64,000 nucleotides of DNA from Leptospiraceae bacterium (GCA_947458405.1 CANGZW010000007.1:1-64000); one strand, 5' to 3'; positions 11,904 to 18,343 are shown, numbered from the stretch's first letter. Notes: a model not told the origin generated them from the sequence alone. Numbers and translations: made by a program.

Positions 11904-13610
11904 TTAATTTACTCTTCCTCTGAATTTTAGTTTTACAGAGTATGTTCCTGTTGATGTGCCGCTGTTTACAACAGTTAATGTCCATGTTCCAGATGTTGAT
12001 TCTCGTAGATGCCTCGCCGTACCAAATCTAATAGCAGAGGAAGAACTCGAGAAGGTAGAACAATTACTGATAGCATTCCCAGAAGATGTATAACAAGTAT
12101 GCGGTTCCAAGAGGATACTATCCGTAGAAGTTAGCCCACTTGAATTGGCAGGTATATTGGAGTGAGTCAGTGTTATTTTTAATTTTCCCATTTGACTGAA
12201 GGTGGTCGTGAAATATATCTCTATAAATTCAATTTTTGTGATTTGGTTAGAAGTTGAGGTTATTGTTGTATTAGTAGTCCCATTGGCAGTAATTTGTTGA
12301 TTTGATATTGTATCGGAATCAATGCTTATATAAGGATTGGTAATTCTCGACCAAGAGGAGGCGGTTTGAATTGCATTGTATGCATGAATTGTTCCAAAAC
12401 CATATTTGTGATTTATATTGAGATTGGCTCCATTTGTTGTCCAACCTGTTTCACTACTATCATTTTTGCGGGCACTGAATGCTAAGATTTCTCGCACGTC
12501 TCTCCAACTTAAATCGGAATATTTACTCATTAATAGGGCAATGACTCCAGCGGCTAAGGGAGCGGAGGAAGAGGTACCATTGAAATCATTTCTGTAGGAT
12601 CTATTTGAATAATTGGTGGACTTAGTAGAATTATTGCTCCCTGATTCGCCTGTTCGGTCTGTAGTACTGATTCCTAAATAGTCGTCTCCCATTGTATGAG
12701 CACATACCCATAAATTAGCACCATTCTCAGAGTAAAAGGCTTTTTTATCATCACTTCCTACTCCACAAATAGATAACACTCCGTGAAAATTTGCCTGTCC
12801 ATCATAATTGGAATTATCGATAATTTCTTTCTTACTATTAGTGGCACCATTGCCTGCTGCCCAAGTATAAATAGTCCCTAAGCCGTTTCTTCCTGTTGTG
12901 ATACCAGACTCTATTGCTGATTGCCAAAGAGAACTGGCAAACTCATCCGAGTACAATCCCGTTCCGTCACTTGCCCCCCAACTATTATTGGAAACATAGA
13001 TGGAAGCAATATCTTTTGTCATAGCATCTGCAACCACAGAGCTACCTATAGTAGTTAATTCCAAAATATTTCTAGCGGTTAGTTTTGCTTTGGGAGAGGC
13101 TCCCCGCAGACCTACATTGTTATTACTTTGAGCAGCAATCACTCCTGCCACAGAAGTTCCATGTCCGCTATCAGAATAGTAATGCCCTGGATCCAATGAG
13201 TTTTTTAGGTAATTATAACTTTTTACAGTAGAAATATTTCCACAAAGATCTTCATGACCCGTTTCCATTCCATCATCGATAACAGCGACAGTGACACCCT
13301 CTCCCAAAATTCCATCATTCCAGGGAGTTATCACTCCAGCATCAAAACCACTTGTTTGTGAGAGATGCCATTGGGATGAAAAAAGGGGATCGGTACCGCC
13401 AGATACAGATCCATATCTACAGGTGGTATTTAGGAATGAATTTAAAATTAGTAGCATAGCTAAATTGTCTAAGGATGTATCTTTTTTGACCTGACAATTA
13501 CTAACAAAGAATAGTAAAATTATCATAAGTAAAGCAATTATACGTTTATGAAGTATATTTTTTTTACTTATATATAATTTTTTATTTTTTATAATATCTT
13601 TCATATTCAT
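11904..13610 (-). CDS. S8 subtilisin/kexin-like serine protease lipoprotein with C-terminal P-like domain
   Basis: 568 aa; lipobox-like FVSNC; DPLFSSQWHL mature-start motif; catalytic VAVIDDG / GHGTSVAG / NGTSSSAPLAAG; P-domain-like end (LKITLTHSNIP...GTWTLTVVNSGTSTGT). Confidence 0.9.
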   Translation of the reverse strand: MNMKDIIKNKKLYISKKNILHKRIIALLMIILLFFVSNCQVKKDTSLDNLAMLLILNSFLNTTCRYGSVSGGTDPLFSSQWHLSQTSGFDAGVITPWNDGILGEGVTVAVIDDGMETGHEDLCGNISTVKSYNYLKNSLDPGHYYSDSGHGTSVAGVIAAQSNNNVGLRGASPKAKLTARNILELTTIGSSVVADAMTKDIASIYVSNNSWGASDGTGLYSDEFASSLWQSAIESGITTGRNGLGTIYTWAAGNGATNSKKEIIDNSNYDGQANFHGVLSICGVGSDDKKAFYSENGANLWVCAHTMGDDYLGISTTDRTGESGSNNSTKSTNYSNRSYRNDFNGTSSSAPLAAGVIALLMSKYSDLSWRDVREILAFSARKNDSSETGWTTNGANLNINHKYGFGTIHAYNAIQTASSWSRITNPYISIDSDTISNQQITANGTTNTTITSTSNQITKIEFIEIYFTTTFSQMGKLKITLTHSNIPANSSGLTSTDSILLEPHTCYTSSGNAISNCSTFSSSSSAIRFGTARHLRESTSGTWTLTVVNSGTSTGTYSVKLKFRGRVN

Positions 13611-13780
13611 TTTAGTAAGGTAATCATATTAAAAAAGAGTAAGTAATTTAATTTTTTATTGAAATCTTTAGTCATTCCATAGTAAATTGCAGTACGTATT
13701 TTAATATGATTAAATAATATTTTTACATATTATATTAATTAGACTTTAAAAATATGAATAATATTACAGGTTTTTTTATT

Positions 13781-14422
13781 TTATCGGGGGAATGCCTTTT
13801 GATACCATTCAGGGCTAGATGATATTACACCAGATTTTGTTCTAAGTTCATTGGCTTTATCTAAACAGGAAAATCCGGGTTGGGTATCAAAAACATAAAA
13901 AAATCCATTGGTGAGTGGAAGTTTTTTTTGAAATTTAATTTTATTTTCTTTTGCCCAATTTTCAGCATCTTGTGAGGATAAGTCCTTATCCATTTCAATT
14001 ATAATGCTACCGGGGAGGGTCATCAGACTCGAATCATTTCCATTTGAGGAAAATACCGGAGAATAGTCACCATTGTTTTGAAGGGTCGAAGGCACAGATC
14101 CTCTTGACAAAAAGGACTTAATTCCTGCGCTTCCTACCTTGTGAATTTTCACTCTATTTCCATCGACAACAGTCTGTGCTCCTTTGTCGAGCTCCCTATA
14201 TTTAGACTTTCCAGTGGAAAATTCTGCTACATAGTCGGGGAGTAGGGTGACCCGTTTTTGTTCTTTTCCATCGTAGTACATGTGAATAACACCTCTATCT
14301 TTGGTATCGATAATTTTTTTATCTTCCGCGACTAACTCTTCTTTCATGCAGGAAGATAAAAAAAGTATGGGAAGGATGACTACTATTTTTATCTTGTATA
14401 TGTTAAGCCTATTATTTTTCAT
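13781..14422 (-). CDS. Lipoprotein resembling a stand-alone S8 protease propeptide
   Basis: 213 aa; lipobox FLSSC; segments resembling propeptides of bacterial kexin-like proteases (YYDGKEQKRVTLLPDYVAEF...; SIIIEMDKDLSSQDAENWAKENKIKFQKKLPLTNGFFYVFDTQPGFSCLDKANELRTKSGVISSSPEWY). No protease domain. Confidence 0.65.
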   Translation of the reverse strand: MKNNRLNIYKIKIVVILPILFLSSCMKEELVAEDKKIIDTKDRGVIHMYYDGKEQKRVTLLPDYVAEFSTGKSKYRELDKGAQTVVDGNRVKIHKVGSAGIKSFLSRGSVPSTLQNNGDYSPVFSSNGNDSSLMTLPGSIIIEMDKDLSSQDAENWAKENKIKFQKKLPLTNGFFYVFDTQPGFSCLDKANELRTKSGVISSSPEWYQKAFPR

Positions 14423-14436
14423 TTTGTCCTCTATAA

Positions 14437-16095
14437 TTAATTAATTCTTCCATAAAATTTTAAACTGGCTGTAAAAGTTACAGATGTGCTAGTAGCTTTT
14501 AAAATCCATGTACTACCAACAGACTCTCCTAGGTGACGACTTGTCCCCATTCGAATGGTTCCCATGTTTGAACCGGTTTGGCAAAAAACATAGCTATTTC
14601 CAGAAGCACAATAGTGAGACTCAATTAAAATGCTTTTTGTTCCGGATGTATTACTTCTATAAAGTTCTATAGTTATTGTTCCTGTGTCACTTGCTGTAGT
14701 ACTAAAGTTAATCTCTATAAATTCTATTTTTGATATATTGTTACAGGCAGATGTAGTAAAACTAATTTGACCTGTGCTACTTGTCGCGCTTGCTATATCA
14801 CATGTAATTTGAGGATTTGTAATACTCGACCAGGTGGATGCAGTAGACATTGCACGAGTTGCGTCTATAGTTCCAAATCCATAATTATGATTGATATTAT
14901 AACCAGCAGTATTCGTAGTCCAATCCGAATTTGAGCTATCATTCTTTCGGGCACTTTTAGCTAAAATTTCCCTAACATCCCTCCAAGAAAAAGCAGGATA
15001 TTTACCCACTAAGAGTGCTGTTACCCCAGCCGCTAGGGGTGCCGCAGAAGATGTCCCATTGAACTTTTTAGTATAATTTTTATTGCTTAGGTCAGAACTA
15101 CTTGAAGAAGTATTTAGTCCTTTGCCTCCTGACGCATCCGTTGTTGTTATAGCCCTTGTGTAACCTGTATTAGTACCTTGGGTGTGTGCACAAACCCAAA
15201 GATTGGCACCCTTTTCTGAATAACTTGCCCTTTTGCCATCTTCTCCCACTCCACAGATGGCCAGAACACCGTAGTAGTTAGCCTGCCCATCAAAATTAGA
15301 ATTATCAAATGGAAGTGTAGTATTATTGATTATACCGCTATACCCTCCATTTCCAGCAGCCCAAAAATAGAGAGTTCCCTTCCCACTTCTACCTGTTGTG
15401 ATACCACTTATGATTGCATTTTTCCAGAGGCTTGTCGCAAGAGTGGAGTTATAGTTTCCTGTTCCATCTGCGGCTCCCCAGCTATTATTGGATATGGAGA
15501 TAAGGTCAGTTTGGCTGGTGAGAGCCTCCGCAACATTAGAATCAGTTGCACCCTCCAGGATATTTCTACCCACTAATTTTGCATCATAAGCAACACCTTT
15601 TCCTCCCAGACTGTTTCCTGAAATGGAGGCAATCACTCCTGCCACAGAACTCCCATGGTGACTGGTAAAGACAGAATGTGTGGGATCGGTGCTTTTGGTT
15701 GCATAATTATAACCAGTCACAGAGGAAGAAACATTTGAGCAAAGATCTTCATGGAGAATTTCTAACCCATCATCCACAACTGAGACAACCACACCGGAGC
15801 CCGTACTACCTGAGGACCAAACAGAAGATACATTGGCATCTTCCCCGGAAGTAATTGAATTATTTAAATGCCACTGATCTGTAAATAGAGGATCGCTTCC
15901 TCCACTTACGGATACAGAACCTGTTGGACAATTATTTTTAGAAGCAATTTGTCCCAAGAGATACAACAGTATTAAATCATTTTTAGGATCGGAAGAACTG
16001 GTTTTGCAGGAGGCCAAGTTAAGGATTAAAACACACTGGGTACAGATTATAAACAAGTATGGGAGAATTGAATGTTTTAGCTTTGTTATACTCAT
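14437..16095 (-). CDS. S8 subtilisin/kexin-like serine protease lipoprotein with C-terminal P-like domain (paralogue)
   Basis: 552 aa; lipobox LASC; DPLFTDQWHL; VVSVVDDG / HHGSSVAG / NGTSSAAPLAAG; similar C-terminal domain to the 568-aa paralogue. Confidence 0.9.
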   Translation of the reverse strand: MSITKLKHSILPYLFIICTQCVLILNLASCKTSSSDPKNDLILLYLLGQIASKNNCPTGSVSVSGGSDPLFTDQWHLNNSITSGEDANVSSVWSSGSTGSGVVVSVVDDGLEILHEDLCSNVSSSVTGYNYATKSTDPTHSVFTSHHGSSVAGVIASISGNSLGGKGVAYDAKLVGRNILEGATDSNVAEALTSQTDLISISNNSWGAADGTGNYNSTLATSLWKNAIISGITTGRSGKGTLYFWAAGNGGYSGIINNTTLPFDNSNFDGQANYYGVLAICGVGEDGKRASYSEKGANLWVCAHTQGTNTGYTRAITTTDASGGKGLNTSSSSSDLSNKNYTKKFNGTSSAAPLAAGVTALLVGKYPAFSWRDVREILAKSARKNDSSNSDWTTNTAGYNINHNYGFGTIDATRAMSTASTWSSITNPQITCDIASATSSTGQISFTTSACNNISKIEFIEINFSTTASDTGTITIELYRSNTSGTKSILIESHYCASGNSYVFCQTGSNMGTIRMGTSRHLGESVGSTWILKATSTSVTFTASLKFYGRIN

Positions 16096-16238: not shown

Positions 16239-17423
16239 ATGTCCAGTCAAAAAGGTGTTATGCTTAATTATTTTATCCCTAAATTTAGCTCTCAATTGAG
16301 AGCGTTCTTCTTTTATCTATTCTTATTTTTGTTTTCCATTTCCTGTGCCTCTACATCGACGAGAGATGCTGAGGGTTATATTTATGTTTATAATGTTGAG
16401 GGTGTTAACAAGGATGATTTAGAGCTCAATGCCAAACGTAAAATTTTGGAAAATGGACTCGGGGATTTGATCGAGGGAAGTTCCCAAGCAATTGATGGAC
16501 AGTTAAAAGAAAAAATCATCAATTCCAGCGTGGAGGGTTTTGTAACCAATTATACTCAAATTGGGGAATCAAGAAAGAAAGGTATCATGTTTGAAATAGA
16601 TGCCAAAGGAAAAGTCAATAAAAAAGCTGTGGGGGATGCCCTCAAAGAAAGATACAGAGATCTCGGAAAGCCCAGTTTTTTAATGTTAATTGATGAGAAA
16701 GTCTTCGGAAAATCCACCTCGGGAGGAGCCGTTACTATCACCGAAAATGCAATCGCTGGAAAATTTACCGAATTTGACTTTTTAGATAGAAATCAATTTA
16801 CACGAATTTTAGCCAAAGAAGGCGGGAAAACCATCGGAGTCTATGGAAACCCCAGCAATGAAGAGAAAGTTTTAGCCGCGGCGGCTGAGATGGAAGCCCA
16901 AATTTTATTAGTCGGTCAAACCGATGTAGTCAATGCGGGAGAAATCGAGGGATCTGGATTAAAATCTTTCCAAGCGGTTCTTAAATTTAAAATTTTTGAT
17001 GTGAACAGTGCAAGAATTTTAGCGGCTGACAATGCTTCGGGAGCCTATCCCCACATAAATCCTGATACGGGAGCCCAAAAAGCAATCTCCAAGGCAGTAG
17101 ATGAAGCCTATCCAAAAATCAGAGATCAGGTCGCTTCCAAGTGGAAACCGGGTACAATCGTTCGATTGAAAATTGAAGGTTTAACGTATGATGAATTTAT
17201 TGATAAAGATGTAAGAACTGTAATACGAAATATCAAGGGTGTAAATGGAGTCAATGACAAGAGCAGTGGGAATGTAAACAACATGATTGTTGTGGAAGTG
17301 GAAGCTCTGTTTAACGGAAATGCTCTGTATCAAAAAATGAGAGATAGAAAGAGTGACTTCGGGTTTGATTTTTCAAGTAAGGAAGTAAAGCCATCCACGA
17401 TACACATCGTAGTGAAGAAATAA
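16239..17423 (+). CDS. Lipoprotein of unknown function, FlgT/LPP20-like architecture suspected
   Basis: 394 aa; lipobox FSISC; early segment resembles secretion/flagellar LPP20-type modules (NAKRKILENGLGDLIEGSSQAIDGQ...). Confidence 0.55.
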   Translation: MSSQKGVMLNYFIPKFSSQLRAFFFYLFLFLFSISCASTSTRDAEGYIYVYNVEGVNKDDLELNAKRKILENGLGDLIEGSSQAIDGQLKEKIINSSVEGFVTNYTQIGESRKKGIMFEIDAKGKVNKKAVGDALKERYRDLGKPSFLMLIDEKVFGKSTSGGAVTITENAIAGKFTEFDFLDRNQFTRILAKEGGKTIGVYGNPSNEEKVLAAAAEMEAQILLVGQTDVVNAGEIEGSGLKSFQAVLKFKIFDVNSARILAADNASGAYPHINPDTGAQKAISKAVDEAYPKIRDQVASKWKPGTIVRLKIEGLTYDEFIDKDVRTVIRNIKGVNGVNDKSSGNVNNMIVVEVEALFNGNALYQKMRDRKSDFGFDFSSKEVKPSTIHIVVKK

Positions 17424-17479: not shown

Positions 17480-18343
17480 CTATCTCCAGCCATCATTACA
17501 CAATTCACTGTGATTTTCATAAAGTCCTTCTGTTGGTACGGAAGGAGCACGCACGTGACCAATGTATTGAGCATATGTTACATTACTATTGAAAGGCCAA
17601 ATTCCTTCGCTCTGAGTAATTGAGCTCTGGCATTTTGATAGACCTCCTGCTGTACTGTATCCACAGGATGAATGATATGATACTGCATAATCATCCTCTC
17701 CGGGAAGAATTGCTGATGCACCTGCCATTCCCTTATAACCGGGAACATGGCTTACTGTGATACCACCAGTATTGTTATGGTTAAAAGATGATCTAGCTGT
17801 AGAAACGATCAACGCTTTATCCATAGCATTTCCGGCATACCCAAAAGTAACACCATTGAGAGCAGATGCGAGTTCAGAACCACCAGAAGCCGCCGCTAGT
17901 GCAGTAACTCCACTGATTTTGTAACCCTTTGCAGAAGCAGTTCCACCGAGATTAGATAACCAATACTCAGAAGCATAACAACCAGCACTGTGACATACGA
18001 TTTTACATGTATCAACACCCTTGCATCTTGCGACCATTACTGTGCTTAAACTAGTTTGAGCACGGCATGTTCCATAAGTGCGAGGATCGCTTGTTCCATC
18101 ATAACCAACGAAGTACTTAGTTCCAGAAACGCTAGCTGTGTTAGTACCCCAATAACTATTCACATCAGTAGTAGTTGTTCCACAATGATTGCTACCAGAT
18201 TTACCATGAACAAAGATAGTGATTGTTCCGGCACTTAAAGAAGCAATAGACATTAGAAATGCCCCGACTGAAATGATTGTAAAATTTTTTAGCATATTTT
18301 TTTTCTCCATTTTTTTTGAATACCAATCTCGAAATCCAAACAC
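17480..18343 (-). CDS. Secreted cysteine-rich putative alpha/beta hydrolase
   Basis: Signal peptide (MLKNFTIISVGAFLMSIASLSAG), oxyanion-like TIFVHGKSG, nucleophile-elbow-like VCHSAGCYASEY, late conserved-looking Asp and His. Likely start is an internal Met. Confidence 0.6.
   Translation of the reverse strand: MFGFRDWYSKKMEKKNMLKNFTIISVGAFLMSIASLSAGTITIFVHGKSGSNHCGTTTTDVNSYWGTNTASVSGTKYFVGYDGTSDPRTYGTCRAQTSLSTVMVARCKGVDTCKIVCHSAGCYASEYWLSNLGGTASAKGYKISGVTALAAASGGSELASALNGVTFGYAGNAMDKALIVSTARSSFNHNNTGGITVSHVPGYKGMAGASAILPGEDDYAVSYHSSCGYSTAGGLSKCQSSITQSEGIWPFNSNVTYAQYIGHVRAPSVPTEGLYENHSELCNDGWR

Follow-up and report, generated by a model that had tools for sequence, protein, structure and literature searches.

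In a 64,000-nucleotide stretch of an uncultured Leptospirales genome (Leptospiraceae bacterium, GCA_947458405.1 CANGZW010000007.1:1-64000; hereafter the window) we analysed three genes read from the minus strand in the order protB, partner, protA: an S8 protease, a 213-residue protein and a second S8 protease. The open reading frames (ORFs) are all intact and lie where the original prediction, made from the sequence alone, had placed them, with the partner starting 14 bp behind the first protease on the same strand (Table 1). The lipoboxes that it had assigned to all three products are present as putative sites: LASC in protB (C30), LSSC in the partner (Cys25) and a weaker VSNC in protA (C39). 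We read the locus as a two-part zymogen system acting in trans, with a probability of about 85%.

Table 1. Features of the protease-partner locus, in the order of transcription
Feature	Coordinates	Strand	Description
protB	14437..16095	-	First gene; kexin/furin-like S8 lipoprotease (putative) without propeptide; 552 residues
protB triad	D108 (15772-15774), H147 (15655-15657), S349 (15049-15051)	-	
protB mature-start motif	15883..15894	-	DPLF, residues 68-71; aligned to the mature N-terminus of furin/kexin
Partner	13781..14422	-	Predicted stand-alone prodomain, 213-residue putative lipoprotein (lipobox Cys25); 14 bp 3' of protB
Partner prodomain proper	13784..14008	-	Residues 139-213; AlphaFold2 model, Foldseek matches, and PF22148 on the same region of relatives
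Partner C-terminal Pro-Arg	13784..13789	-	Equivalent of P2-P1 at the maturation site of fused relatives
Partner-protA spacer	13611..13780	-	170 bp
protA	11904..13610	-	Second kexin/furin-like S8 lipoprotease (putative) without propeptide; 568 residues; sister of protB
protA triad	D112 (13275-13277), H150 (13161-13163), S347 (12570-12572)	-	
protA mature-start motif	13380..13391	-	DPLF, residues 74-77

The two proteases match PF00082 (Peptidase_S8) over its full length, keep their Asp-His-Ser triads and are the sole S8 proteases of the genome; they are 52-56% identical to each other. The closest solved structures to protB are furin and kexin (E-value about 1e-49), followed by the Aeromonas sobria protease ASP (5.5e-41). 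The mature N-terminus of furin, DPKFPQQWYL, aligns with DPLF..QWHL of protB, a motif that recurs in protA. Since only 38 residues (protB) or 35 (protA) separate the putative lipid-accepting Cys from DPLF, neither protein has room for a propeptide, as the original prediction had held; its figure of ∼50-60 residues for the linker was too high. Furin residues D258, D301, D306 and E331, which form the S1 pocket and its Ca2+ site, correspond in the alignment to D210, D264, D269 and E294 of protB. The equivalents of these four residues are invariant in 11 aligned proteases including protA, and cleavage after Arg/Lys is therefore expected for both window proteases. The alignment with furin and kexin extends into the P domain, for which protA scores 15.9 bits (cut-off 21) and protB gives no match. 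In the Leptospirales alignment, the region from the lipobox to the catalytic domain contains a second invariant Cys (Cys56 in protB, Cys64 in protA) and a conserved hydrophobic stretch.

A spirochaetal operon combining an S8 lipoprotease with a small lipoprotein could also correspond, in Leptospirales, to the dentilisin complex of Treponema denticola, made of the lipoproteins PrcB, PrcA and PrtP, with the small protein as a structural subunit; PrcB is needed for expression of PrtP, and protA does match the NCBIfam PrtP model weakly. That match, however, scores 51.9 bits where the cut-off is 300 and is confined to the S8 domain, while PrtP is activated by cleavage of its own N-terminal propeptide, for which protA and protB have no room, and the closest solved relatives are furin and kexin. 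We consider this explanation largely refuted and its residual probability very small.

The partner gene is present in a single copy in the genome. Several lines of evidence support its product being a stand-alone S8 prodomain. On their last 75 residues, several of its relatives exceed the curated cut-off of 21 bits for PF22148, the fervidolysin-type S8 prodomain (29.8, 24.3 and 21.5 bits), and 18 of 57 aligned members match it at E ≤ 0.01. An AlphaFold2 (AF2) model of the window partner, built from a 20-sequence alignment, has a predicted local distance difference test score (pLDDT) of 86, and its residues 139-204 form a strand-helix-strand-strand-helix-strand arrangement, which is the S8 prodomain topology (PMC6993865). 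Foldseek matched the model to the PC1/3 prodomain bound to furin (9fid_D; probability 1.00, TMt 0.80, root-mean-square deviation 2.3), to ORF2, the chaperone of ASP (3wqb_B; probability 1.00, TMt 0.63, E-value 0.019, 20% identity), to pro-subtilisin E (probability 1.00) and to POIA1 (probability 0.99). The partner has an extra N-terminal subdomain; the idea that this is a second prodomain copy was dropped after a negative profile comparison. A simple pattern finds lipobox-like sequences, some of them doubtful, in 13 of 63 partners, and most of the others start with what resembles an ordinary signal peptide; judged from these sequences, a lipidated partner is a local variant, uncommon among partners.

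Fused relatives connect the partner with the protease. Among 80 named loci (L numbers below) collected by a scan with the protease alignment, eight (L151, L152, L155, L160, L169, L172, L174 and L176) carry the partner domain fused N-terminally to the same protease, with E-values of 6e-9 to 7e-23 against the partner profile; their hosts belong to Desulfobacterales, Pseudomonadota, Hydrogenedentota, Actinomycetota, Acidobacteriota and Lentisphaerota. In L172, profile positions 2-206 align with residues 2-227 and the protease follows from residue 230. At the joins an Arg precedes the mature start (...YPNWLRKRTTR/AVPNDPLF, ...RRRTKR/ALPDDPLF, ...ERTKR/NDPLY, VKR/AIPDD), and stand-alone partners stop at the equivalent place (...PDWWREVSRR, ...PDWWQEVTTR, ...SPEWYQKAFPR), the window partner ending with Phe-Pro-Arg. 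A C-terminal Arg or Lys is found in 37 of 40 clusters of stand-alone partners (made at 50% identity) against 16% of 384 other ORFs of the same loci, a difference whose binomial tail of 5e-26 overstates the independence of the clusters; in the three remaining clusters a basic residue near that place is followed by an extension. Because the P1 Arg of the fused joins and the basic ends of the stand-alone partners coincide, the gene boundary matches the maturation site of the fused enzymes. As the tree is unrooted, it does not tell whether the two-piece form arose by fission or the one-piece form by fusion. A '786-aa open frame' in L004, the closest homologue, was rejected as a further fusion: an in-frame TAG between protease and partner makes it two genes.

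A basic C-terminus would also suit product inhibition, and the partner shares its fold with stand-alone inhibitors of the I9 type. It might then be, like POIA1 or SUB1-ProM, an inhibitor that shields the envelope and not a folding chaperone. We find this unlikely: the targets of I9 inhibitors have a propeptide of their own whereas the partnered proteases have none, in the fused homologues the partner domain takes the propeptide's place, and ASP, in a like arrangement, depends on ORF2 for its maturation.

The distribution of the two genes links them further. A first scan of the genome contigs with the single partner protein gave no match. In a search of 150 genomes (G numbers), with the window's own partner counted, partner homologues were detected in 17 and the protease in 21, and each of the 17 partner genomes carries the protease (hypergeometric probability 6e-19, relatedness ignored). 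The partner stands directly behind a kexin-like, propeptide-less protease in 13 of the 16 genomes other than the window's, and the pair recurs in more than 50 loci, so the arrangement is more than chance. It occurs in at least Spirochaetota, Nitrospirota, Bdellovibrionota, Myxococcota, Planctomycetota, Pseudomonadota and Chloroflexota; the named relatives of the window locus come from uncultured Leptospiraceae/Leptospirales genomes. In three genomes (G008, G009 and G020) the kexin-like protease is the only S8 protease and the partner lies on another contig, so that the pair can only work in trans there. The G020 protease (L066/L143, G020:C5:170213-171497) is read in two pieces, by frameshift or assembly error, and its unlinked partner is intact. 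The prodomain-like nature that the original prediction had seen in the 213-residue protein is thus borne out by the PF22148 relatives, the fused homologues, the basic C-terminus and two of the checks that it had proposed: structure prediction gave the S8 prodomain fold, and relatives have the partner only together with the protease.

The partnerless protease of three genomes (G018, G021 and G038) no longer has all its triad residues. Across the 21 genomes (17/1 against 0/3, p = 0.003) loss of the partner usually goes with loss of the catalytic triad. Four full-length relatives of the protease at loci with no partner gene (L065 4859-6373, L067 897-2528, L068 4537-6168 and L070 922-2643) have lost catalytic residues and are likely pseudoproteases. 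Weak matches to the partner profile in G031 and G159 were judged chance; G031 is without an S8 protease, and its ORF overlaps one on the opposite strand. At four further loci (L166, L170, L171 and L175; three Chloroflexi, one unclassified) the prodomain gene precedes the gene for a giant protease (>2300 residues) and overlaps its start, in place of the usual downstream position.

Four observations weigh against the reading of the locus as a trans-acting zymogen system. The window partner itself matches no Pfam model, PF22148 included, nor any NCBIfam model of note. The Foldseek E-values of its model are weak (0.015-0.06), ferredoxin-like folds being abundant. In G034, alone among the 21 genomes, the protease keeps its whole triad and no partner is detectable. 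Finally, the AF2 model of a fused homologue, which matches furin, kexin and ASP, has a pLDDT of 73, falling below 50 at the junction, and docking was therefore not read from it. Single-sequence and profile searches of the PDB sequences with the partner returned nothing meaningful. The G034 locus (L069/L125) and the dead G038 relative have an upstream gene in common, which encodes an exported protein of 254-257 residues.

Subtilase propeptides are textbook intramolecular chaperones. In the system that we propose, protB, and probably protA, would be exported as a lipoprotein already without propeptide, and the 213-residue lipoprotein would be that propeptide made as a separate product, which binds the catalytic domain and templates its folding. 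Its C-terminal Arg would enter the Arg/Lys-specific S1 pocket as a ready-made cleavage product; since the C-terminus already has this form, the self-cleavage step of ordinary zymogens would not be needed. The partner would then inhibit the protease until removed, displaced or degraded, and the putative lipid anchors would hold all three proteins at the same membrane. We infer the chaperone and inhibitor activities, the docking and the membrane side from features that were themselves computed: the identity and fold of the prodomain, its fused homologues, the split at the maturation site, the furin-type S1/Ca2+ residues and the co-occurrence. By analogy with ASP/ORF2, the partner should template folding and afterwards block the active site with Phe-Pro-Arg.

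Whether one partner serves both proteases is a separate matter. Some labels of the protease tree (those of six Verrucomicrobiota fusions and of a few cases at contig ends) were assigned by eye. In this tree protA groups with protB as its sister (Shimodaira-Hasegawa-like approximate likelihood ratio test, SH-aLRT, 95) within a clade whose other members all have a partner downstream; this indicates either that the protease alone was duplicated in tandem in this lineage or that a second partner was lost. As in the window, a single partner accompanies two proteases in G010. A Burkholderiales locus (L156) shows the order protease-protease-partner, its two proteases being recent copies, and at L133 and L153 a protease-partner pair is followed in tandem by a second one. 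Judged by gene order and by the relatives, the partner belongs first to protB. It may serve protB only; protA, as a tandem duplicate, would then fold unaided or have taken on another role. The order seen in the relatives makes protB the expected cognate, the identity of the two proteases is rather low, and protA, 170 bp further on, could have its own promoter. A promoter-like match in this spacer (13758-13729) was no better than chance, and promoter and terminator scans did not beat shuffled sequences. Against a partner restricted to protB, protA retains the triad and the furin-type S1 residues in a genome without a second partner, departs at 4 of the 64 best-conserved positions of the family, where protB does so at 5, and has kept its catalytic triad where partner-losing relatives have mostly lost catalysis. 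We regard the restriction to protB as a real but lesser possibility and lean slightly towards sharing of the single partner by both proteases. In the fullest version, two different surface proteases would both depend on one lipid-anchored prodomain as their obligate chaperone and inhibitor in trans, and the system would belong to a cross-phylum class of split zymogens that arose by fission exactly at the self-cleavage site; in our judgement this stands at an even balance. If true, the supply of the shared partner would set the activity of both proteases.

Next to the locus, the genes at 17480-18343 (minus strand) and 16239-17423 (plus strand) encode a secreted protein with the hydrolase-like motifs HGKSGSNHCG and CHSAGC and a lipoprotein-like protein; neither has a Pfam match.

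New here are the spirochaetal, partly lipidated form of the system, the fused links, the taxonomic breadth and the candidate sharing of one partner by two proteases. The same enzyme occurs across phyla both in one piece and in two, divided at the maturation site, which makes a natural split experiment. This opens the questions of what self-cleavage is for, how a prodomain acting in trans reaches its client and whether a single prodomain can have two of them.

By analogy, the mode of working is probably that of ASP/ORF2 and as such already known. This pair, named as the nearest precedent by the original prediction, is indeed the right one (ASP is among the PDB matches, ORF2 among those of Foldseek) and, to our knowledge, the only studied case of the arrangement, which is reportedly present in five proteobacterial genera; our survey extends it to Spirochaetota, Nitrospirota, Bdellovibrionota, Myxococcota, Planctomycetota and Chloroflexota. 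As in the window, the Aeromonas sobria system (PDB 3wqb; PMC5638518) has a kexin-like protease deficient in propeptide and a separate chaperone gene directly downstream, and the two chaperones share the prodomain fold and a C-terminal Pro-basic residue (Phe-Pro-Arg here, Gln-Pro-Lys in ORF2). ORF2 is required for maturation of ASP, and its C-terminal Lys lies at the ASP catalytic centre (PMC5638518). The window differs in that its proteins are putative lipoproteins whereas ASP is secreted, in having one partner between two proteases, and in the extra N-terminal subdomain of the partner, the structural match to ORF2 being at 20% identity. The Pfam family ORF_2_N (PF18492) has no match in the window partner, and one Burkholderiales relative reaches 20.3 bits, below the cut-off of 29.2; the partner is thus not filed in that family, though it would work like ORF2.

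Other systems share single traits. Dentilisin (PMC8167434) likewise pairs a spirochaetal S8 lipoprotease with a small lipoprotein, but PrtP keeps its own propeptide and the complex therefore differs from the window system; PrcB is reportedly without homologues beyond the oral treponemes (PMC8167434). The I9 inhibitors (POIA1, yeast IB2, Arabidopsis SPI-1 and Plasmodium SUB1-ProM; PMC6993865) are free-standing propeptide-like proteins as well, yet their target proteases have propeptides. The lipase-specific foldase Lif (PMC7046727, PMC3352829) is also a separate, membrane-bound steric chaperone of an exported hydrolase, unrelated in protein family and client. Furin and kexin (S8B) resemble the window system in catalytic domain, S1/Ca2+ residues, cleavage after a basic residue and prodomain fold, but these eukaryotic enzymes are one-piece, autocleaving zymogens. 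The one-piece bacterial subtilases with a PF22148 prodomain have, by the profile matches of the partner's relatives, the same domain in the same place before the mature start; in the window this prodomain is not fused but encoded as a putative exported lipoprotein of its own.

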